IMG/VR virus record: IMGVR_UViG_3300017991_000090
Location: 1 to 64,000 of that record
Strand: one strand, 5' to 3'
DNA: 64,000 nucleotides
Origin: a virus
Numbering within the stretch: the stretch's first letter is position 1; each line of letters starts with the position of its first letter. Both the position numbers and the translations under genes were made by a program. Shown here piece by piece: positions 14,107 through 36,476 of this stretch. The notes beneath the pieces were generated by a model. That model saw nothing but the letters and a program-made list of their open reading frames with translations. It searched no databases and was not told the origin of the DNA.

Positions 14107-14469
14107 TTAGGTGTGTGCTTTAGATACGTGTGCCGTATCTGCCTCTTCCTGTCGCAAGGAGTGTTTTACGAACTTGAATGACAATTCTTCAAGAGAATTA
14201 CCACTAAAATACTCCTTTTCATTTTCATCATAAATCGTAAACCTTTCGCTTCCATTACAGTCAATATAATATTCTGTACCCGAGTGCGTTATAATGGATA
14301 GTGTTTTGTTTAGATTATTTTCATTAGTTTTTTCTACTTTTTCATTGTCCCCCGATTCTTTTCTCGGGATATATGTGCACCTTAAAGAATCAATCCGATG
14401 CACTGGAATTAAATCAACCTGGACCTCACCAGTTTCGTTTACGCGCTGAAAAACACGTAAAGTTTTCAT
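14107..14469 (-). CDS. Unknown small protein, last gene of ubiquitin-like operon
   Basis: A 120-residue acidic protein with a good AAAGGAGC ribosome binding site. The middle is Asn/Glu/Lys-rich and probably disordered. The second half has a Tyr/Phe pattern that could form a small beta domain (E-Y-Y-I-D-C, F-T-I-Y-D-E, E-Y-F-S-G). It follows the tandem ubiquitin-like gene in the same operon and ends in a terminator. A link to the ubiquitin-like pathway, for example as a target or regulator, is only a positional inference. Confidence 0.45.
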   Translation of the reverse strand: MKTLRVFQRVNETGEVQVDLIPVHRIDSLRCTYIPRKESGDNEKVEKTNENNLNKTLSIITHSGTEYYIDCNGSERFTIYDENEKEYFSGNSLEELSFKFVKHSLRQEEADTAHVSKAHT

Positions 14470-14536
14470 GTCTAATATACGCTCCTTTCTGTTAAAATGA
14501 TAGGAGGGGAATAGCTCCCCTCCCTTTATGATAACG

Positions 14537-15019
14537 CTACCATCTGTTACCTTTTACCTTTTGCGACAGAATTATGTTCACGGCCCTGTCGCCCGCCGGC
14601 TTTTTTAACACGAAATCCTCATCCTGCTTGATATGATTAATACGATACTCATAAGCAGGAGAACCATCCGCTTTATAATACGCTTTGCGCTCATCTTCAG
14701 GCATCTGGTCAATAACATCCTTGATCGTCATACCTTCTTCGGCGCCCATCGATTTTATTCCACCACCGGAACCCATCTTGATGAGTTTTACCTCAAACGG
14801 GTCACCGTCCTGGTTTCCTTTTACTTTTTTACCGACGAATACCTTATCGCCATCTTCAAGTTCTGTATCCGGATCTACATCCTCTCCGCGCCTGGTGACT
14901 TTACAGTCATCGGGAAATTCCTCACCACAGGCGTCGAACAATCCCTGTACGGTAGGGTCATCGGATATCTCAACTTCCTGTACATCCGAGCCCATTTTGA
15001 TAAGCTTACAACAAACCAC
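14537..15019 (-). CDS. Tandem ubiquitin-like (Ubl) protein
   Basis: The 160-residue product consists of two beta-grasp-like repeats. Both begin with the same K-L-I-K-M-G strand (residues 5-10 and 78-83) and both end in K-V-K-G-N (65-69 and 154-158). Repeat 1 has the classic ThiS/MoaD/ubiquitin-like run of a T-V-x-x-L-F helix start and an L-E-D-G-D-K-V final strand. The protein ends G-N-R-W rather than Gly-Gly, so removal of a short tail by the neighbouring JAB peptidase, or use of a non-canonical end, would be needed for E1 activation. The GTG start at 15019 is preferred because it includes the first beta-strand; AAAGGAAA lies upstream. It sits next to E1, JAB and two E2-like genes, which strongly supports a conjugation role. 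Confidence 0.75.
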   Translation of the reverse strand: MVCCKLIKMGSDVQEVEISDDPTVQGLFDACGEEFPDDCKVTRRGEDVDPDTELEDGDKVFVGKKVKGNQDGDPFEVKLIKMGSGGGIKSMGAEEGMTIKDVIDQMPEDERKAYYKADGSPAYEYRINHIKQDEDFVLKKPAGDRAVNIILSQKVKGNRW

Positions 15020-15062
15020 GACTATATGATTTCCTTTCTTTTGTTGTAATTAATGTCGTTAA

Positions 15063-15818
15063 TTAAGGTTGTTGTATGAATTGAGGCTCTATGTCCTCGT
15101 TGAAGTTCCTGTAGTAGAAACTATCAGGGTAAAGGGAAAAATGAACCTCATTCCATATCTTGGACTGTTCAGATTTTTCACTGTCAGCCCCGTAGTGCGC
15201 ATTAAAATGCTGTACAACCCTCCCACATGCCATACTGGCCAAAAATGTCACGGTCGTAATAATTGACGCGCTCGCGCCACATGCACTACTATCTGCTTCT
15301 TCATCGGAATATAAAGTTTTTTTCCATTCTTCTGCTTGTTCACCGTCATGAGGATTGAATGCGTAGACCCGACCGTCTCGCAATCCCATCCTCGTTTCTA
15401 TGACGAGGTCTGTATCAAAGGAAAACTTTAAGCATTTATCAAAAATCTCCTCACGAGATTTCATGGTATCTGTAAGCAGAAACACATATGTCGAGCGCAC
15501 ACTCTGTTGATCAGTAATATACTCATTGTGCACTTCAATTTCAAAGCCGCATTTTCGAAGAATCACTTCTTTAAGAGCTTCTACTTTTGGCATTCCAATA
15601 TGCGAAGGTTCATAAATCTGGTTTGCCAGATTATGCTCCTCTACTTTGTCACCATCAAATACTTTTAAAGTTCCCTGTCCGTGCGGGGAATTTCCCCATC
15701 CTAATTGTGCTAATATAAAAGCAACGTAGCTTCCGGTTGCACCGGCCCCAACCAGTGCAATTGATTTATTTTTAATTTGCTTCGGGTCAAGCAAATCTAT
15801 TTGTCTTATATAATCCAT
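15063..15818 (-). CDS. E1-like / ThiF-family adenylating enzyme
   Basis: The 251-residue product should activate the C-terminus of a ubiquitin-like protein with ATP. Residues 24-30 are G-A-G-A-T-G-S, the nucleotide-binding loop of the Rossmann fold. It is followed by F-D-G-D-K-V-E-x-x-N-L-x-x-Q, the usual acidic step and Asn of ThiF/MoeB/E1 enzymes. A Cys within S-S-A-C-G-A-S-A-S near residue 195 is a candidate for the thioester or for a structural Cys. The start at 15818 is chosen for its perfect GGAGG site, which lies inside the last codons of the JAB gene; a start at 15869 would lack this. It lies between JAB and the ubiquitin-like gene. Confidence 0.85.
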   Translation of the reverse strand: MDYIRQIDLLDPKQIKNKSIALVGAGATGSYVAFILAQLGWGNSPHGQGTLKVFDGDKVEEHNLANQIYEPSHIGMPKVEALKEVILRKCGFEIEVHNEYITDQQSVRSTYVFLLTDTMKSREEIFDKCLKFSFDTDLVIETRMGLRDGRVYAFNPHDGEQAEEWKKTLYSDEEADSSACGASASIITTVTFLASMACGRVVQHFNAHYGADSEKSEQSKIWNEVHFSLYPDSFYYRNFNEDIEPQFIQQP

Positions 15819-15819
15819 A

Positions 15820-16737
15820 TTATCCTCCGGATCCAGATTGTGTTTCAAATTCCTCAATCTGCTTCTCAACGTCAGTCATTAAAGTGGCGATTTCAGCTTC
15901 ACTAAGAATACTGTCTGAGCTGTCATCATCCTCTTGTTTCTTATTAACTTTTGTAGTAGTAACGTTGGTGCTTCCGCTATAGTCAAACAGGTTTCCCTGC
16001 TGATGACCATGGTGATAACTATGGCTTCCTGATCGGCAGTGATATTGCCGTGTAGGTATGTTTTTCTCTTTGAGCTTCTTTACTTTCTGCTCTATCTCTT
16101 CCATTTCCTGATCGTGTTTAAATATCGAATAGACCCTTGCAATTACGTCATACGGGTCTTCAGAATAATCAGGTGTAACAAGCTCCTTTATATCATCGAG
16201 CTTTTGTATCATTGCATTTTTGGACGCATTTTCTTCGACAGTCCATTTTATATTATCAAAGCGTATTTGATTCTGATAGTCAAAGAATGATATAGATATC
16301 TCATTGTCTGAACAGATTGCACGTATCAGATACGCTTGAGTAGAGTTCATCCTGTCAAAAGCCTGGGTTTCATCCTGACCAGACGGAGTGGTAAAACCCT
16401 GGGGATGATAATGCCCCCAGAATCTTATGAAGGGTATTTCTTCTTCACGACCTTTATCACAAAGGTACTCCATCACCTCAGTTTCACCTTCAGGCGATAT
16501 TTCACATGTTCCACCATCTGCAGCACAGTGCTTCGGATAGAATATGTCACGGATGTAATAAGTGTATTCCTCCTGCTCATCAATTATGGCGTAGAATCCA
16601 ACCTCAGTAGTATGAGCCTCTATTAACGCACGAATCCACTTCAAAGCTGTTACGCTGAAAATAATATTCGGAGCAACCTTTTTCTCCTGAGTAAACAGCC
16701 TGTAGGTGACCTTTCTGTCATCTGGTTTAAAATCCAT
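15820..16737 (-). CDS. JAB/JAMM-type metallopeptidase
   Basis: The 305-residue product has the JAMM zinc-peptidase signature: E45 (T-E-V-G-F-Y-A), then H109-x-H111-x7-S119-x2-D122 within W-G-H-Y-H-P-Q-G-F. In known families this domain removes ubiquitin-like proteins from targets or trims their C-terminal tails. The region after about residue 165 is a coiled, His/Gly/Ser-rich and acidic extension without a recognised fold. Its ATG overlaps the stop of the upstream E2-like gene, and its own stop is next to the E1 start. This placement ties it to the ubiquitin-like cassette. Confidence 0.85.
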   Translation of the reverse strand: MDFKPDDRKVTYRLFTQEKKVAPNIIFSVTALKWIRALIEAHTTEVGFYAIIDEQEEYTYYIRDIFYPKHCAADGGTCEISPEGETEVMEYLCDKGREEEIPFIRFWGHYHPQGFTTPSGQDETQAFDRMNSTQAYLIRAICSDNEISISFFDYQNQIRFDNIKWTVEENASKNAMIQKLDDIKELVTPDYSEDPYDVIARVYSIFKHDQEMEEIEQKVKKLKEKNIPTRQYHCRSGSHSYHHGHQQGNLFDYSGSTNVTTTKVNKKQEDDDSSDSILSEAEIATLMTDVEKQIEEFETQSGSGG

Positions 16738-17891
16738 TAAGGATCAACCTCTTCAGCTATTTTCCAGTTCTTCATATGCGCTCCCCAGCTGTCAGATTCA
16801 TTAGGACTTGTGAGGAATCTGAGTAAGCTTTCAGCGATATATTCAAGGTTACGTTCAACGAACGCCTCAAACAGAAAGTCGTATGTATTACCAATACATT
16901 TTGAGCCGTTAGAATCCACATGGCCACACTCCCAGATTCGTGACCCGGTGTTATACCGATGCGTCAAATTGTGAATAGTAATTACACTGTCAACGTCTGT
17001 TAAAGCTTTCGGTGAGAAAAAAGCGCTCAACGCAATACCGATACGCATTGTGCCAACAAGACGCCTTTCACCTTCAATTTCATCATCGGTGATTAGCGGC
17101 TCAGTGATAATAATAATCTGCTTATCAGTAAAGTAAACATCATTAATGAGCTTATGCCTTTTAACCTCTTCAATCTGATCAATAATACTCTTGATAATCG
17201 GGTGCTCCTGGACATCGTGCTCCATCAGCTTGATGTTCCGCTTCATTATCAACAACTCACGAAACATTTTGTCAAACTGATTTTTAGTTTCGAGAAGCTG
17301 TTTTGCGCGGTTTGTCGAATCGTCTTCCAGCAGTCGTGCAATTGCTGCATACACTGATTCACGCTCAATCTTAATATCAGCAGGTATGTCGGACGGGCCA
17401 ATCATACCAGAGTCAAGCTTAATAGCAAGGTCTGCTGGCGGGTCAACGGTGTCATCTTCCTCAACCGCCTCTTCAGTAGGTACCCCTGGCGCTGGCGCTT
17501 CATCATCAGCTTCTTCAACCGGCATCTCAGCAGCTTCAGCACGTACAGCCTCTTCTGGTGCCGCGTCAGCCTGGTTAGCAGCTTCAGCTGGCTCATCAGC
17601 ATCTTCACAACGTCTCACCTGCACCTCATCTTCATCCTGCGTATCTTCTTCCATAACTCTTAAGGAAATCCGTGTTGTATTACGGTGCCTGCTTATGCGT
17701 AGCGGCGTTTCCGGATTTGGGCGCGACCCGTTCGATAACAATCTGATCGCACTCCTTTCGTCTTCTGGCAACACTTTTAATTGAAGACTGCCATCGGCTC
17801 CCTGGTCGATTTCTCTAATTAAATCGTATACACGATCTGGTATAGCATCGACAGTATAACCGACTTCTTTGTTAATGTGGATAGTGACCAC
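16737..17891 (-). CDS. E2-like (UBC-fold) protein A
   Basis: A 384-residue product. The GTG start at 17891 has GGAGG upstream at a rather long distance. Residues about 95-160 are an Ala/Glu-rich, disordered acidic linker. The C-terminal part (about 250-384) has the pattern of bacterial E2-like conjugating enzymes. Two beta strands are followed by E-C-G-H-V-D-S-N-G-S-K-C-I-G-N, with C332 at the position of the E2 active cysteine, then a helix and L-T-S-P-N-E-S-D-S-W-G, which matches the L-L-x-x-P-N-x-x-D end of the E2 core. This is a motif-level assignment; a structure prediction would settle it. It is translationally coupled to the JAB gene. Confidence 0.65.
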   Translation of the reverse strand: MVTIHINKEVGYTVDAIPDRVYDLIREIDQGADGSLQLKVLPEDERSAIRLLSNGSRPNPETPLRISRHRNTTRISLRVMEEDTQDEDEVQVRRCEDADEPAEAANQADAAPEEAVRAEAAEMPVEEADDEAPAPGVPTEEAVEEDDTVDPPADLAIKLDSGMIGPSDIPADIKIERESVYAAIARLLEDDSTNRAKQLLETKNQFDKMFRELLIMKRNIKLMEHDVQEHPIIKSIIDQIEEVKRHKLINDVYFTDKQIIIITEPLITDDEIEGERRLVGTMRIGIALSAFFSPKALTDVDSVITIHNLTHRYNTGSRIWECGHVDSNGSKCIGNTYDFLFEAFVERNLEYIAESLLRFLTSPNESDSWGAHMKNWKIAEEVDP

Positions 17892-17911
17892 TTGGTTATA
17901 AACCTCCTTTA

Positions 17912-19867
17912 CTATGTATGCACTGGAATTAAATTAGCAAACTGTTCGTCAAATTTCTTTTCAGCCTCTACGAGCTTATGAATCTTTTCATACCTGGTGG
18001 CGTCATCTGTCATATTACCATTCAACGCGGTATCGGCAGCAACTTCAGGCCATTTGTTAACCTGTTCACCAGCACTGTCGGCTGTATTTGCTTCACTGAG
18101 AAACAGTATTATTTGATATACAAGTTCAAACATATTGCGGCGCTTATACGCATCAGTCATTCCGGTCGCAAGATTACCATGGCAGATGTGACCGTCATGC
18201 CATACATGGGGCGCCTGCATTGCCTGAGAAAATGCATCAATCTGATATTTAGTGTTCTTGATATTGACAGTTTTACCGACATCATATTCGTTGCTGTGCA
18301 TGCCGATCGCTATCTGGAATGTTCCAATGTCATGCCATCTGTCTGTCCGCTCATCCTGAACATAGATGTTATGGGTATAAACATACACCACATTGTCACG
18401 CACCACAATAGAGCTCACCTTGTCAATCGCAAGAGTTTCATCATAATTGCTCTGAGCCTTATCACGCTCATCCTGCATAAATTTACTTTCATCGAAGTAT
18501 GAAATCTGTTCATGGAACTTCTGGAAAATCTTCGCATGCTCCATGGCTTTAGCAAGATGTTCCTTATACTTCTTACGGTGTTCATCACGCTTTTTCTTAA
18601 GCTCATCAATAATAATTTTGGAGTTACTGACGCTAAATTTAACATAGTCCTCCCGATTGTCAGTATGCATCTGTTCAAGATATGCATTATCAATTTCCTG
18701 AAGCGCTTCATAAGACAGGCTGTGATTATACCGTCTGGTAAACTCAGAAAGAGAAGTTTTGTAGAAATCCGTCTTGCTGAAATCAACCATACAGTATACA
18801 ATACATCTATCCTTTAGCGCCCATACCACATTGGTAGCAGTGTCTTTGTACACCTCGTCATATTTATATAAAGAGGTATTCTGACGCTTAGCAAGTATCT
18901 CATCAACCTGCTTATTCTTTTCTTCATCGGTCAGGTCTTTATCTTTCCTTATCATCTCGATTTTTAAATTGTCATCACCATCGCTTGTAGGAGCATACAG
19001 TTCTGAAACATTATGACCGAAACATATCATGCTTTTGTGGGTATTATAAATAAACCCGGAAGCATATTCAGCACTGATTAAAAAAAGAGTATGATATTCT
19101 ACCTGGGCCAGCTTGTAATCATTCTTCATTTCATGAATAACATAATGCGCAAGAAGTGAATTCTTAATAATGACGATATTTCTTTTAAGAGTTGTGGCGA
19201 CATCGTCTACAGCACGCTTAATACCTGAATTCATAGAATGGCCAATTGATAAAATATGAAAGCCTTCACACGTATAATCATCATACACTTCAGCGCTTTT
19301 TTTACGAGCAATTATATTAATAAACTCGTCGATTTTCTGCTGCTGTTTACTGATTTTTGGCTCTTCTTTTTTCTTGGGCTCTTCTTTCTTTTCCTGCTGA
19401 GCTGCCTCGCCTGCCACCTCGGCCGGAACAGCTTCACCGGTTCCAGTTGCCTGTACCGCCTCCTGTGTGGGCTGGTTTGGCTGTGGGTTTAATATTTCAG
19501 ATATTTTTACTTTAATATTATCAATATTAAATCGTGCGCCACTTGGCCCCATGGACTTTACAGCCTCATACTGTGAAACTGCTTTTGCATCTTCGCCGGT
19601 AATTTCATCGAGAATCTCGTCATCTGACCAATAGATATGTATAATAGTTCTCATATCCATTACAGTTGAGTTAACAATAATAGGCGTATACTGTGGTGCT
19701 GCATTACTCAATTGCTCCCACAATTTAGCCAACACGTTCATTATTTTATTGAACCCCACATGGTCAACGGCCGCAACGGTCTTGCCGCTTTCCAACGGGT
19801 AGTTCATTATCTCAACGCCGACTGATTCAGCAATCCATAATTCAACGAACCCGTAAGTATCATTCAT
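17912..19867 (-). CDS. E2-like (UBC-fold) protein B with long N-terminal region
   Basis: A 651-residue product with AAGGAAGGTG upstream. Residues about 145-185 form a low-complexity Ala/Glu/Lys/Pro linker, and about 395-460 are a charged coiled coil. The C-terminal part repeats the E2-like theme: strands, then A-P-H-V-W-H-D-G-H-I-C-H-G-N with C562 as candidate catalytic cysteine, followed by a helix and a Trp-containing end. The P-H-V-x-x-D-G-x-x-C step is closer to known prokaryotic E2 families than that of protein A. The N-terminal 150 residues may form a further domain. It is the first gene of the ubiquitin-like cassette, in the same order and direction as the rest. Confidence 0.65.
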   Translation of the reverse strand: MNDTYGFVELWIAESVGVEIMNYPLESGKTVAAVDHVGFNKIMNVLAKLWEQLSNAAPQYTPIIVNSTVMDMRTIIHIYWSDDEILDEITGEDAKAVSQYEAVKSMGPSGARFNIDNIKVKISEILNPQPNQPTQEAVQATGTGEAVPAEVAGEAAQQEKKEEPKKKEEPKISKQQQKIDEFINIIARKKSAEVYDDYTCEGFHILSIGHSMNSGIKRAVDDVATTLKRNIVIIKNSLLAHYVIHEMKNDYKLAQVEYHTLFLISAEYASGFIYNTHKSMICFGHNVSELYAPTSDGDDNLKIEMIRKDKDLTDEEKNKQVDEILAKRQNTSLYKYDEVYKDTATNVVWALKDRCIVYCMVDFSKTDFYKTSLSEFTRRYNHSLSYEALQEIDNAYLEQMHTDNREDYVKFSVSNSKIIIDELKKKRDEHRKKYKEHLAKAMEHAKIFQKFHEQISYFDESKFMQDERDKAQSNYDETLAIDKVSSIVVRDNVVYVYTHNIYVQDERTDRWHDIGTFQIAIGMHSNEYDVGKTVNIKNTKYQIDAFSQAMQAPHVWHDGHICHGNLATGMTDAYKRRNMFELVYQIILFLSEANTADSAGEQVNKWPEVAADTALNGNMTDDATRYEKIHKLVEAEKKFDEQFANLIPVHT

Positions 19868-32476: not shown

Positions 32477-33070
32477 TTAGAAAGGGAGGTCATCTGCCCA
32501 ATTAGGGTCGTCGTCATGCTCCACAACACTGTCGATGTTGTCATATTCGGCAAGAGCTGCTCTGACATCACCGGGCGTTACAACGTCGAACTCCCAGTCT
32601 AAATAAGTAATGTGTACAGGTTCAACTATTCGATTATTGTAGTCACGATTCCACATCCCGTATTCAATTGTAATCGGGTGCATTTCAAATGATACCTGCA
32701 CAGGATTAAAGCACTTGAATTTATCAAGTATATCCTGCGGTATCGGTTCAGGGTGAATTAATTTATCGACAGCCTTCTCAGACAACTGCAGCTTATTCAT
32801 CATATAACGCTCCAACCAATCCTTTTTAGGATTGACGCGGAATATTGAATGCAGGTACATAAACTGCAATAATTCAGGGTCGTTGTCTAAAAACATGTCC
32901 AATATTTTTTCTCTATCGTCGTTGACACGGTTAAACACCTTAAGGAGGTGCTTATACTGTACTGACGAATTTTTTATACGTTTGCACCATTTCATTTCGA
33001 TAAAGTATTCCAAACATTCCTGGGTGTACTTTGCATCAAGACTGTCCCAATCAACCCGCTTCTTGTGCAT
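32477..33070 (-). CDS. Replication-associated protein with SSB-like acidic tail
   Basis: The most likely start is the ATG at 33070, which overlaps the end of the primase-helicase gene by 20 bases; a frame from 33172 would overlap by 122 bases. The ribosome binding site is weak, so coupling is likely. The 197-residue product is charged and helical and ends D-D-D-P-N-W-A-D-D-L-P-F. This acidic end with a final P-F is the classic tip of bacterial SSBs that binds partner proteins. No OB fold is obvious in the rest. It could be a helicase loader, a decoy for SSB partners or a replication adaptor; this is inference. Confidence 0.5.
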   Translation of the reverse strand: MHKKRVDWDSLDAKYTQECLEYFIEMKWCKRIKNSSVQYKHLLKVFNRVNDDREKILDMFLDNDPELLQFMYLHSIFRVNPKKDWLERYMMNKLQLSEKAVDKLIHPEPIPQDILDKFKCFNPVQVSFEMHPITIEYGMWNRDYNNRIVEPVHITYLDWEFDVVTPGDVRAALAEYDNIDSVVEHDDDPNWADDLPF

Positions 33071-36000
33071 CAGAATGTTCGTCACTCGACAAATGGTCTT
33101 CGAGTTTCTTAATGACATCAGCATCCGATTCATGCTGTGTAATTTCGAGTATATCCGAGAGTTCTCTTTCATCTTTGTTTGCTACCATGTCAGACAACCA
33201 CTCATTAAATGCTGGTGTTTTACGATAAGTCGACTTGGCCCTGACAAGGCACCTCCTTATGATTAAAGTGTTAATAAGTTTTTGAGTTCCGATGTTTACA
33301 GGCATCCCTGTCGACTTAAAATCATCGTTTGACGCATCGACCATTAATAGTTCGCGGTCATACACCCTTTGTAAATAATCACAGAACAGTTGCTGTAAAG
33401 ATTTGTCCGTAAACTCTTCTTCCAGCAATAAAGACCTGGGGTTGATATACTTGATGATATTTTCCATAAACCTCATATCGCCAAGAGATTCCAAATCCTT
33501 CTGCTGCTCCGAATATATGTCAAGCTGCATATTTGGATGGCAGTACAGCTTAATTAATAAATTCATTACAAATTCAATGTGTTCCTTTTTTACTAATACC
33601 TTATTCCAGTCATCATCTGGTGTAGAGTACATCATTGCTGCTACAGAAGTCCCCATCCTCGTCAGCTTGAGCCGTGTTTCATGGTTAATAAGCTGGGTGT
33701 TGGTGTGGAACTTATTCAGCAATTTTTTCTGGCAAGAGTTGATATATTTTTCTATACCCTCTTCATAGACCACTTCTTTTGGAGAGCGTGAGTGCGTCCA
33801 CATCAGAAGGTACCTTGATTGAAACTCCGTAAACTCGGTGAGCAGCGGAGTATATATCGGCGTGAACGAGTCGTCTTTTATATCGCTCTGCTTCACAATC
33901 CATGCTACATCGAACCGCGAAAGGATCTCATCCTTAAAGCAAAGGTGTTTTAGAAACCTGACCCCGTTACCGAACGACGCAGCTTTATCAGACGTCCATG
34001 CCCGGGGGTTTGATAGGAAAATCTTCCTTACCCGTGCAGGAGCCTTCTTGCAACCAGCCACAGTGGTTACATCAGCTATTCCAGAAGAACGAAGAGATGT
34101 TATCCCATTCAGCGCGTCCTGATTTATATTACTTAATTCATCGATAACGACTACGCCGCCATCATTCATAACCATCTTCCCCCATGAAACAACCGGTTTA
34201 TTCTTGGTATATTTTATACCACCCAATAGCCCTGCCCTGGTAACAGCGCTCGAACCGGCAATCAGGTCTCCAACCTTATAGTGATTCATTAGGAATTGAC
34301 TTATCATAGTTTTACAACATCGTGATTCCCCGCCTATTAATACTTCAACCCATCCTCTTTTAAGAGAAGGGAACAGGGTCTTGTTATCCAATTCGAGCTG
34401 TGAGAAGAATGCCAGGTCGTTAAGAAGAAACATCTCCCTCCTTCCATTGACACCGGCTGCCTGGGCAAATATATCATATCTGCGTTCAAGAGCCTGCTCA
34501 ACAGTCTCACCTTCTTTTGGTCTGAACACTTTCAATATGTCATGTGTTTCCTGGTCCATTACAAAATTTTCGGTCGAGGTTGCTATTGGTTCAGCTTTAT
34601 GGGCAAAAAGCACAGCCCTGGAATCGTTTGGCGCCCGTGTTTGAACGCCTTTGAATTTATACGACCTGTTCGGGTAAACGTCCATATCTCCAACAATGTA
34701 AGCGTCCATTTCTATAGCAGAGCTTTCCATAGCCTTACTCAAGATACCCTCTCCATACTCAGACACATCCCTTGTCAAGCGTACACGTAACAGCTTTTCA
34801 AATGTTTTGTTGGTAATGCTGACAAAGTTACAACTCGGATTTATTCCGGCCAGCTTTTTAATGTACATATCACGCTTATCGTCAGACACTTCTATCATAC
34901 TCAGAATGTCGTGGGTGTTTATTTTAATACACCCGAGATTGTTATAATGCTCTTTTGGTATATTGCCATTTACCAACACAAACTCTATCTCAGGAGACTC
35001 TCTAAATTCTGGAAAGCTTGGCAGCACACACTTCTTACACGATGCGTACAATGTACTTGAAGGGCACCCAGTATGTTTACAGCTCATAGACAGCTCTTCC
35101 GGATAAAGATATGCTGCGTCAATAAAGTCACCAACAGACGCAACCATTTCAAGAATTTTGCTGTCATCATGTGACGAATACCTCGGCAGCCTCGACTCCT
35201 GAAGAGTAACCTTGTATAGCTCTGTTTTGACACGTTCTACATTTTCAGTATAAACCGGAGTGTTCTTAACAAGAGAAAGAAACCTCTGAGTAGCGAGTTC
35301 GTCGAATCCATTCTTCTCCATAAAATCAGTGAAGTCCTTCTCCGCACGTTTCATCTTCTTGTTACCCTTGGCGTTGGTAACCTCCACCATCTTCTCCGGG
35401 TCAAGCCCGAACGGGTTGTCCTTAGATTTATCGAGGTTGACAATCTTAATCTGTTTTGCGTAAGGATACAGTGACTTGGCAAGCTTCTTCGCCCCGGCAA
35501 TACCGGTTTCATCGGAGTCCAGGCATATGATAATCTCTTTGTCGGTAAACAGCTGTCGCGCTTTTTTCTCACCGAACACCTTAACGACGTCGGTATTACG
35601 CTCGGCACCCATAGTCACAGCACCTTCGATGCCGTGGGCGATGCCGCAGTACATGTCCGGCTCACCGCCGAAGAACATAATCTGGCTCTTGGTGAAGTTG
35701 TTCATGGGCGATGGGAGTATCTCCCGGCCCTTGTGCAGGAACAGCCATTTAAAGGCTCTATTCGTATTGAAGGGATCATACACCTTCAGATTTATCAGGT
35801 CGCCGTCAGCGTGTATCATTGGGAAAATATACCTGCGCCGGCCATCCAGGCCGATGCGGAAGTTCCTGACCATATCCTCATCGATACGCCTTTTATCATA
35901 CAGGTAGGAGAGCCTGTCAGGGTCGTTCAAGAGATTGTTGACGTATCCATCCAGTTCTTCCATCGGAAGTGATGAGACAGCCTTCGCTTCCTGTGCAAGC

Positions 36001-36476
36001 TGTTCTGAAAGAACAAACGGCTTACCCTTGGCTGTTTTATGCTTTTTCTGGCATTTTGAATACAGCTCATATAACTGCTGATTCCATTCATCCTCACCGT
36101 CATTAAATGTGGTTGAGAACCGTATACCGGTTTGTGACTCGTTAATACTGAGAAAGTCAATAAGAAAATCGGAGTAGTGATCACCCCACTGGCTTGTTCC
36201 TTTAAGATATTCAGTCCAGTATTTCTGGAAGTTCCCCTTCTCTCCGCATGTATGGCAATAGTACTGCCCAGTGTCGTTGTTTACTGACATGGAGGCGTGT
36301 GAATCGACCCCCTGAGAATGCGCTCCAGCGTTGATACAGCGGAAGTTTTTGTTCGCGTCCTGATACCATCCGAGGCGTTTATATATCTCGTGATAATCGC
36401 CCGACATCAGCATTTCGGCAGTTGCAAATAAAATTTTCAAATCTGCCTTTTTTAACTTATATTTATTGTTGGACAA
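33051..36476 (-). CDS. DnaG-type primase fused to MCM-like AAA+ helicase
   Basis: A 1141-residue product beginning at TTG after a perfect GGAGGAA site. The N-terminus is a primase zinc-binding domain (C47, H53, C74-x2-C77). A TOPRIM domain follows (G-G-E-P-D at 270-274 and D320-x-D322). A second Cys cluster lies at 466-483. Residues about 690-870 are an MCM-like ATPase: Walker A G-G-E-S-R-C-C-K-T (715-723), G-S-S-A-V-T near 741, D-G-G-V-V-V-I-D-E (772-780), sensor L-S-N-P-R (821-825) and I-L-S-R-F-D (851-856, R854 as arginine finger). Most phage replicative helicases fused to TOPRIM primases are of the RecA-like T7 gp4 type, so an MCM-type partner is unusual. Confidence 0.82.
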   Translation of the reverse strand: MSNNKYKLKKADLKILFATAEMLMSGDYHEIYKRLGWYQDANKNFRCINAGAHSQGVDSHASMSVNNDTGQYYCHTCGEKGNFQKYWTEYLKGTSQWGDHYSDFLIDFLSINESQTGIRFSTTFNDGEDEWNQQLYELYSKCQKKHKTAKGKPFVLSEQLAQEAKAVSSLPMEELDGYVNNLLNDPDRLSYLYDKRRIDEDMVRNFRIGLDGRRRYIFPMIHADGDLINLKVYDPFNTNRAFKWLFLHKGREILPSPMNNFTKSQIMFFGGEPDMYCGIAHGIEGAVTMGAERNTDVVKVFGEKKARQLFTDKEIIICLDSDETGIAGAKKLAKSLYPYAKQIKIVNLDKSKDNPFGLDPEKMVEVTNAKGNKKMKRAEKDFTDFMEKNGFDELATQRFLSLVKNTPVYTENVERVKTELYKVTLQESRLPRYSSHDDSKILEMVASVGDFIDAAYLYPEELSMSCKHTGCPSSTLYASCKKCVLPSFPEFRESPEIEFVLVNGNIPKEHYNNLGCIKINTHDILSMIEVSDDKRDMYIKKLAGINPSCNFVSITNKTFEKLLRVRLTRDVSEYGEGILSKAMESSAIEMDAYIVGDMDVYPNRSYKFKGVQTRAPNDSRAVLFAHKAEPIATSTENFVMDQETHDILKVFRPKEGETVEQALERRYDIFAQAAGVNGRREMFLLNDLAFFSQLELDNKTLFPSLKRGWVEVLIGGESRCCKTMISQFLMNHYKVGDLIAGSSAVTRAGLLGGIKYTKNKPVVSWGKMVMNDGGVVVIDELSNINQDALNGITSLRSSGIADVTTVAGCKKAPARVRKIFLSNPRAWTSDKAASFGNGVRFLKHLCFKDEILSRFDVAWIVKQSDIKDDSFTPIYTPLLTEFTEFQSRYLLMWTHSRSPKEVVYEEGIEKYINSCQKKLLNKFHTNTQLINHETRLKLTRMGTSVAAMMYSTPDDDWNKVLVKKEHIEFVMNLLIKLYCHPNMQLDIYSEQQKDLESLGDMRFMENIIKYINPRSLLLEEEFTDKSLQQLFCDYLQRVYDRELLMVDASNDDFKSTGMPVNIGTQKLINTLIIRRCLVRAKSTYRKTPAFNEWLSDMVANKDERELSDILEITQHESDADVIKKLEDHLSSDEHSDAQEAG

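Follow-up and report, generated by a model that had tools for sequence, protein, structure and literature searches.

The window analysed here is a stretch of 64,000 nucleotides of viral DNA (positions 1 to 64,000 of the IMG/VR record IMGVR_UViG_3300017991_000090), and from position 14537 to position 19867 its minus strand carries five adjacent genes, which in the order of transcription encode two E2-like proteins (E2a and E2b), a JAMM/JAB peptidase, an E1/ThiF enzyme and a tandem ubiquitin-like protein (Ubl). All five open reading frames, first listed with lengths of 651, 384, 305, 268 and 160 aa respectively, lie where a preliminary description of the sequence had placed them. As for the gene overlaps which that description saw at the E2/JAB and JAB/E1 junctions, the former stands as one base shared by E2b and JAB (TAATG), whereas the latter is a start-codon artefact which appeared because the first TTG was taken as the E1 start; in fact the conserved start is the ATG at 15818 (MDYIRQ), located behind GGAGG and one base after the JAB stop. 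Directly after the Ubl gene, a terminator-like hairpin at 14502..14524 on the minus strand (10-pair stem; fold z-score -2.55) is the probable end of the operon, and the five genes are probably transcribed as one operon inside the early/replication block of the phage.

The identical five-gene order, which had been proposed as a check on the cassette, is indeed kept in 8 distinct phages, namely contigs of 58-208 kb together with the 84.7-kb record of the window. Since the E2 proteins of these phages share just 21-46% identity with their window counterparts, such an agreement is far beyond chance. Moreover, the position of the cassette is syntenic in all 8, between head genes and replication genes, for which reason a reading as moron or accessory cargo was rejected. 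The portal/head block adjoins the cassette in all relatives; the cassette itself lies on the strand opposite to the head genes and is co-directional with genes for a VRR nuclease, a SNF2 helicase, a DnaQ-PD(D/E)XK nuclease and a primase, its neighbours being the VRR nuclease and small proteins. When 84,980 bacterial and archaeal genomes were scanned with the alignment of the E2a C-terminal domain, no relatives of E2a were found.

The E1/ThiF-like adenylating enzyme (15063..15818, minus strand; 251 aa from the conserved ATG as placed by the alignment) matches Pfam ThiF (9e-23), and its identity across the family is 64-72%. The nucleotide loop GxGATGS is intact as previously described (GAGATGS), but the usual arginine of the NLxRQ motif is replaced, by Asn in the E1s of the window family and mostly by Gly in those of crAss type, and the adenylation chemistry may thus differ. 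Like the E1s of conjugation systems, the enzyme has an adenylation fold and a conserved Cys, the invariant C180 in CGAS (C197 of the 268-aa form), but not the NLxRQ Arg. Compared by hhalign, it reaches 99.8% with the crAss-type E1 and 99.0% with the PRTRC ThiF, and against TIGR03736 (PRTRC ThiF) it scores 41 bits (E 1.2e-10) where the cut-off is 144.75. In the E1 tree it is placed outside the PRTRC clade, and its grouping with the phages is weak (86/66).

The JAB/JAMM metallopeptidase (15820..16737, minus strand; 305 aa) was said to have all its metal-binding residues, and the full set E45, H109-x-H111-x7-S119-x2-D122 is present and invariant in the 8 phages. Pfam Prok-JAB matches weakly in 3 of the 8 family members. 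The profile of the family matches the crAss-type JAB with an E-value of 4e-5, scoring 43 where the maximum in 39 column shuffles is 18, and the DAC15 member of the crAss-type family exceeds the Prok-JAB cut-off; with the full motif and this link to a Prok-JAB-positive family, the protein corresponds to the JAMM deconjugase of conjugation systems. PDB sequence searches gave nothing or chance matches for the window JAB profile, and weak matches to CSN5 and Rpn11 (E 0.2 and 1.1) for the crAss-type one.

The Ubl gene (14537..15019, minus strand) encodes 160 aa with two repeats, spanning residues 1-69 and 74-158, which both end in KGN, and both KGN are invariant in the 8 phages. The first half matches Pfam ThiS (3.4e-6, over the cut-off), and the AlphaFold2 model contains two ubiquitin folds with a mean pLDDT of 84.7, the KGN tail falling below 50. 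With this model, Foldseek matched linear di-ubiquitin (8.1e-7) as well as FAT10 and ISG15, so that the tandem ubiquitin-like protein of the preliminary description is confirmed, including the beta-grasp domains whose lack had been set beforehand as a refuting result. The protein is therefore a beta-grasp Ubl with a flexible Gly-bearing C-terminus, as found in Ubl conjugation systems. All family members end in KGN rather than GG, which counts against conjugation, and the best PDB sequence matches, ThiS and SAMP2, are weak (E 0.6-0.95).

E2a (17912..19867, minus strand; 651 aa) carries an E2-like domain at its C-terminus, and E2b (16737..17891, minus strand; 384 aa), likewise conserved in the 8 phages, is its paralogue with an hhalign probability of 98.8%. 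The motif of E2a is AP-H554-VWHDGHI-C562-H-G-N, of which APHxxxxGxxCxGN is invariant in the 8-phage alignment, and that of E2b is CG-H324-VDSNGSK-C332-I-G; the candidate active sites C562 (codon 18182..18184, minus strand) and C332 (codon 16896..16898, minus strand) are each the sole Cys of their protein that is invariant in all 8 phages. The E2 profiles align with PRTRC protein B (Pfam Prok-E2_D) on the Cys motif, where hhalign gives 4% and beats 100 of 100 column shuffles, and they match the 892-aa protein adjoining the E1 of Xanthomonas phage PhiXhv-12 better than 40 of 40 shuffles. Neither E2a nor E2b matches a Pfam E2 family, a direct profile comparison between the window and crAss-type E2s is not significant, and the E2a, E2b and crAss-type E2 profiles, searched against PDB sequences, returned nothing or chance matches. 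The full-length AlphaFold2 model of E2a (pLDDT 64, active-site loop below 50) has no PDB match with a UBC fold, being itself too poor to test the fold. Searched against BFVD by Foldseek, the same model has one full-length match (low-confidence model). The two Cys-bearing E2-like proteins of the preliminary description are supported, with the reservation that the E2 assignment is drawn from the motif, the paralogy, the operon context and the weak, control-beating Prok-E2_D profile match.

Parallel sets are present in other phages. Of the 83 crAss-like or Flavobacterium-type phage loci that were sampled, 82 have E2, JAB and E1 together, and 79 have a Ubl; the SH...CxG of their E2s is invariant, and all 78 Ubls whose end motif can be recognised have a C-terminal tail, the JAB being present. 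In PhiXhv-12, in contrast, the Ubl already ends in GG and no JAB was detected in the 228 kb of the phage, a difference that fits a JAB-dependent maturation; a scan with the PhiXhv-12 E1 gave no relatives. The crAss-type sets adjoin genes for primase, uracil-DNA glycosylase and exonuclease, that is, they are located in the replication region. The DAC15 and Fpv3 loci correspond to PHROG 15560, 15310, 16107/21448 and 15670, all of unknown function, and the database labels of such phage proteins read 'unknown function' or 'thiamine biosynthesis'.

Altogether, it is likely that the phage encodes, in this cassette, a system for ubiquitin-like conjugation and deconjugation, and the five-gene set looks able to make a Ubl tag, to couple it to proteins and to take it off again. 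The idea of a complete cassette in a phage is borne out by the 8-phage conservation, the Ubl fold, the E1 and JAB profiles and the parallel phage operons; a mere E1-JAB pair was rejected, as the Ubl and the proteins with invariant Cys argue against it. In such a system the JAB would act on the tandem Ubl precursor, trimming or splitting it at the KGN ends, and the E1 would adenylate the exposed Gly end and hold the Ubl as a thioester, probably on C180 in the 251-aa numbering. The Ubl could then be passed to E2a (on C562) and/or E2b (on C332) and be attached by an E2 to lysines of target proteins, from which the JAB could remove it. The targets, which we can but guess, would most likely be phage or host proteins of DNA replication and recombination during infection; the context of the cassette points to a replication/recombination module rather than to the virion, host proteins or counter-defence.

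Counter-defence or superinfection exclusion, in which the phage would tag or block host defence (e.g. of CBASS or Bil type) or tag competing phages, seems unlikely to us. Bacterial E1-E2-JAB systems do act in anti-phage defence, as CBASS Cap2/Cap3 (PMC10097602), and the PADLOC CBASS E1-E2 models match the window E1 locally, in the ThiF part only; but the cassette is a syntenic core instead of a sporadic accessory, it includes no cyclase, effector or defence gene and no CBASS E1-E2 fusion, and no relative of E2a was found in the bacterial and archaeal genomes scanned.

The Pfam matches to ThiS and ThiF and the weak PDB matches to ThiS and SAMP2 could also be read as a sulfur-carrier pathway, where E1 and Ubl, like ThiF/ThiS or Urm1, would provide a thiocarboxylate for the thiolation of a base, a tRNA or a cofactor, the JAB having no role but to mature the carrier; the two Cys proteins would then accept sulfur or be enzymes of another kind. 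Ubls with a dual use, e.g. SAMP2/Urm1, exist. Nevertheless such a pathway is rather improbable here: the window E1 is without a rhodanese domain, like the E1s of the conjugation-type operons of Iyer et al. 2006 (PMC1779556). Moreover, the tandem Ubl models as di-ubiquitin/ISG15, the pair of paralogues with E2-like Cys motifs is never missing, and no sulfurtransferase gene is seen beside the cassette.

Least probable of all is a modification of the virion, in which the Ubl would be attached to proteins of the capsid or tail while they are assembled, since the cassette runs opposite to the head genes and along with the nuclease, helicase and primase genes, and the crAss-type sets are located in the replication region, even though Bil systems modify phage structural proteins and the portal/head block adjoins the cassette in all relatives.

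Returning to conjugation, we may tentatively speculate that complete Ubl systems are a core content kept vertically in several deep phage lineages (the 150-200 kb group of the window, crAss-like and Flavobacterium-type phages, and the Xanthomonas jumbo phage), distinct from the bacterial defence and plasmid types, and that they reversibly tag replication/recombination proteins during infection, the window lineage with a di-Ubl that processes itself and two E2s as a pair; SUMO and ubiquitin at eukaryotic replication forks would be the analogue. The full E1-E2-Ubl-deconjugase set is here core phage content with sister sets in about 80 phage loci, among them those of the cultured crAss-like phage DAC15 and Flavobacterium phage Fpv3, which makes the question of phage tagging directly testable. 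It also offers names for several gut-phage gene families and extends the phylogeny of ubiquitin systems by deep branches.

In prokaryotes, bacterial defence operons and plasmid operons are the known settings of ubiquitin-like conjugation. No description of phage-encoded E1-E2-JAB-Ubl sets was found in the open PMC literature, a scope outside which subscription journals and bioRxiv lie, so that this absence is not proof. CBASS type II Cap2/Cap3 shares the E1, E2 and JAB chemistry and reversible conjugation, but it has an E1-E2 fusion, no separate Ubl gene, and a cyclase and effector, none of which applies to the window cassette; with E1 and E2s as separate genes and no cyclase, CBASS was rejected. 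Bacterial poly-Ubl operons (row 6e in Iyer et al. 2006, PMC1779556) likewise have one protein with repeated Ubl domains plus E1 and JAB, but in them JAB and E1 usually form one fusion protein and the E2-like domain is without the Cys.

The closest known relative is the plasmid PRTRC cassette (Prok-E2_D, Prok-JAB, ThiF, Prok_Ub), given as Prok_Ub / Prok-E2_D / DUF2016+Prok-JAB / ThiF in row 6d of Iyer et al. 2006 (PMC1779556). Both have separate Ubl, E2, JAB and ThiF genes in the order E2-JAB-ThiF, a mobile-element setting, related E1s and a similar G-x-x-CxG around the E2 Cys. The window differs in its tandem Ubl, which is last in order and ends in KGN, in its two, much longer E2 paralogues and in the lost NLxRQ arginine of its E1. 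Moreover, Pfam gives no match to Prok-E2_D or Prok_Ub in the window proteins; the Ubl stays below 1% in hhalign against PRTRC C and matches ThiS instead; the DUF2016 N-domain has no match in the window JAB, while PRTRC A proteins match it; and ParB and the helical protein F are absent from the window cluster, E2a having no profile match to protein F. As four defining features are thus missing, PRTRC membership was rejected and the cassette is not classed as PRTRC.

The crAss-like and Flavobacterium-phage loci resemble the window as complete phage-borne sets near replication genes, with related E1s, a JAB profile match, the E2 motif HSH...CxG and a Ubl ending in KxK(S)G; they differ by one E2, by a single Ubl domain with a long C-terminal tail that is placed first, and by a Gly in E1 at the position of the window family's Asn. 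The occurrence of related sets in many phages, including the gut crAss-like ones, suggests that protein tagging is a permanent element of the life cycle in several lineages of phages.

In the record holding the window (84,744 bases in IMG/VR), positions 14537-19867 contain five consecutive ORFs, all on the minus strand, which in transcription order encode E2a (651 aa), E2b (384 aa), JAB (305 aa), E1 (251 aa counted from the conserved ATG) and Ubl (160 aa). E2a and E2b are spaced by 20 bases, E2b and JAB overlap by one base (TAATG), JAB and E1 are one base apart and E1 and Ubl 43 bases apart; Shine-Dalgarno-like sequences precede E2b and E1, and a terminator-like hairpin lies 3' of the Ubl gene. 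The tight coupling claimed in the preliminary description is borne out by these gaps of 1-43 bases, as is the E2b/JAB overlap, while the claimed JAB/E1 overlap disappears, because it arose from a TTG start taken upstream of the conserved MDYIRQ start. Beyond the hairpin, a 120-aa ORF (14107-14469, minus strand) had no relative by BLAST against the other loci, and a 100-aa ORF occupies the equivalent place in locus L003. Elsewhere on the minus strand, 52032-53084 matches Pfam RVT_1 (1.3e-18), a reverse transcriptase domain that may belong to a diversity-generating retroelement, and 33051-36476 encodes a 1141-aa protein joining a primase-like part to an MCM-type AAA helicase domain.

Scanning with the aligned C-terminal part of E2a returned one near-identical contig and seven further distinct phages (contigs of 58-208 kb), two hits being copies of one phage. 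Every one of the seven has the complete five-gene set in unchanged order, with identities to the window of 64-72% for E1, 39-49% for JAB, 31-52% for Ubl, 27-46% for E2a and 24-35% for E2b; the flanks are syntenic, the cassette being bordered by portal and head genes at one end and by VRR nuclease, SNF2 helicase and DnaQ-PD(D/E)XK nuclease genes at the other. Since genes and flanks are kept together in the relatives, the cassette, as judged from gene content, is core content of this lineage.

Three of the earlier assignments hold well. E1 matches Pfam ThiF at 9e-23, and NCBIfam ThiF/MoeB and PRTRC ThiF below their cut-offs. The first half of Ubl matches Pfam ThiS (3.4e-6), and AF2, run on 8 sequences, models the protein as two beta-grasp domains (pLDDT 84.7), with linear di-ubiquitin (8.1e-7), FAT10 and ISG15 as best PDB matches, in agreement with a tandem ubiquitin-like protein. 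Moreover, KGN ends both repeats in 8/8 phages, and the C-terminus falls exactly there in five proteins and one or two residues later in three, which suggests that both units may be processed, or one double unit used as in ISG15. The window JAB on its own matched nothing significant in Pfam, and only 3/8 family members touched Prok-JAB (best 0.011); its JAMM ligands are complete as claimed, and profile comparison links it to the JABs of crAss-type phages (E 4e-5; score 43, where 39 column shuffles reached no more than 18), of which that of DAC15 clears the Prok-JAB cut-off (6.2e-7).

The C-terminal domains of E2a and E2b are homologous to each other (hhalign 98.8%). The proposed active sites, C562 and C332, are each the sole invariant cysteine across eight phages, the former inside APHxxxxGxxCxGN and the latter within HxxxxxxxCxG in most members, a layout resembling the HPN...G-x-C of E2 active sites. 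On this motif the E2 profile aligns to PRTRC protein B, a Pfam Prok-E2_D protein (scores 22.8-24.1; maxima 19.4-21.9 in 100 column shuffles each), and it also aligns to an 892-aa protein upstream of E1 in Xanthomonas phage PhiXhv-12 (HPHM...GSLCLG; score 30.4; maximum 19.0 in 40 shuffles), at low nominal hhalign probabilities of 4-13%. The cysteines of the two E2-like proteins stand, and their UBC fold is putative; for full-length E2a, AF2 gave a poor model without a match among UBC structures, a result that does not count against the fold. This model has a full-length match (E 2.5e-5) to a 1146-aa uncultured-phage protein (BFVD A0A6J5NL39), perhaps a fusion of cassette genes.

Through relatives of the window E1 we reached a second type of set, in 83 crAss-like and Flavobacterium-type loci, including Bacteroides phage DAC15 (order Crassvirales) and Flavobacterium phage Fpv3, some of which end at a contig edge or are copies of one phage. 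E1 is present in 83/83, E2 in 82/83, JAB in 82/83 and Ubl in 79/83, in the constant order Ubl-E2-JAB-E1, and S-H...C-x-G is invariant in 35/35 aligned E2s. Six loci (L020, L027, L029, L030, L059, L085) have a JAB, E2 or E1 gene that is broken up or displaced, its pieces separated by an insert such as introns, inteins or homing elements would leave. The 78 crAss-type Ubls with a recognisable end motif have a [KR]xK[SA]G-like end followed by a 4-252-residue tail. In PhiXhv-12, E2 adjoins E1, a 140-aa Ubl-like protein ends in ASGG, and no JAB was detectable across the entire 228-kb record; since the tail accompanies JAB in the crAss type and neither occurs in this single phage, the co-occurrence fits maturation of Ubl by JAB. 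PHROGs annotates all these phage families as of unknown function. A common origin of the three phage types beyond E1 and JAB is weakly indicated, because the window E2s had no significant match to crAss-type E2 profiles and the phage E1s cluster in the E1 tree with support of 86/66 only. The NLxRQ arginine is absent from E1 of all three types and kept in the plasmid types examined. In the same tree, ThiF proteins from plasmids of Lysinibacillus (L107), Alicyclobacillus (L109) and Chroococcidiopsis (L110) fall outside the PRTRC clade; their genes, paired with a JAB gene in the latter two, neighbour dnaX, or a helicase on one side and a PD-(D/E)XK nuclease on the other.

In the mechanism we propose, JAB would cut Ubl at KG|N or KGN|, E1 would activate it, and the activated Ubl would pass to C562 of E2a or C332 of E2b and then to target lysines, with JAB able to reverse conjugation. 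By strand and neighbours the cassette is grouped with replication and recombination genes, crAss-type sets are likewise placed, and plasmid sets lie near dnaX, helicase or nuclease genes; from these settings, our best guess is that the targets are proteins of the replication and recombination machinery.

The cassette is not assigned to CBASS, nor to PRTRC, whose Prok-E2_D, Prok_Ub, DUF2016 and ParB/F it does not match. No description of phage-encoded sets was found in the open-access literature searched, and paywalled or preprint literature could contain one. By its predicted mode of working the cassette works like a ubiquitin-like conjugation system; it is a variant of prokaryotic Ubl conjugation, new in its phage-core setting, its tandem Ubl and its two E2 paralogues.
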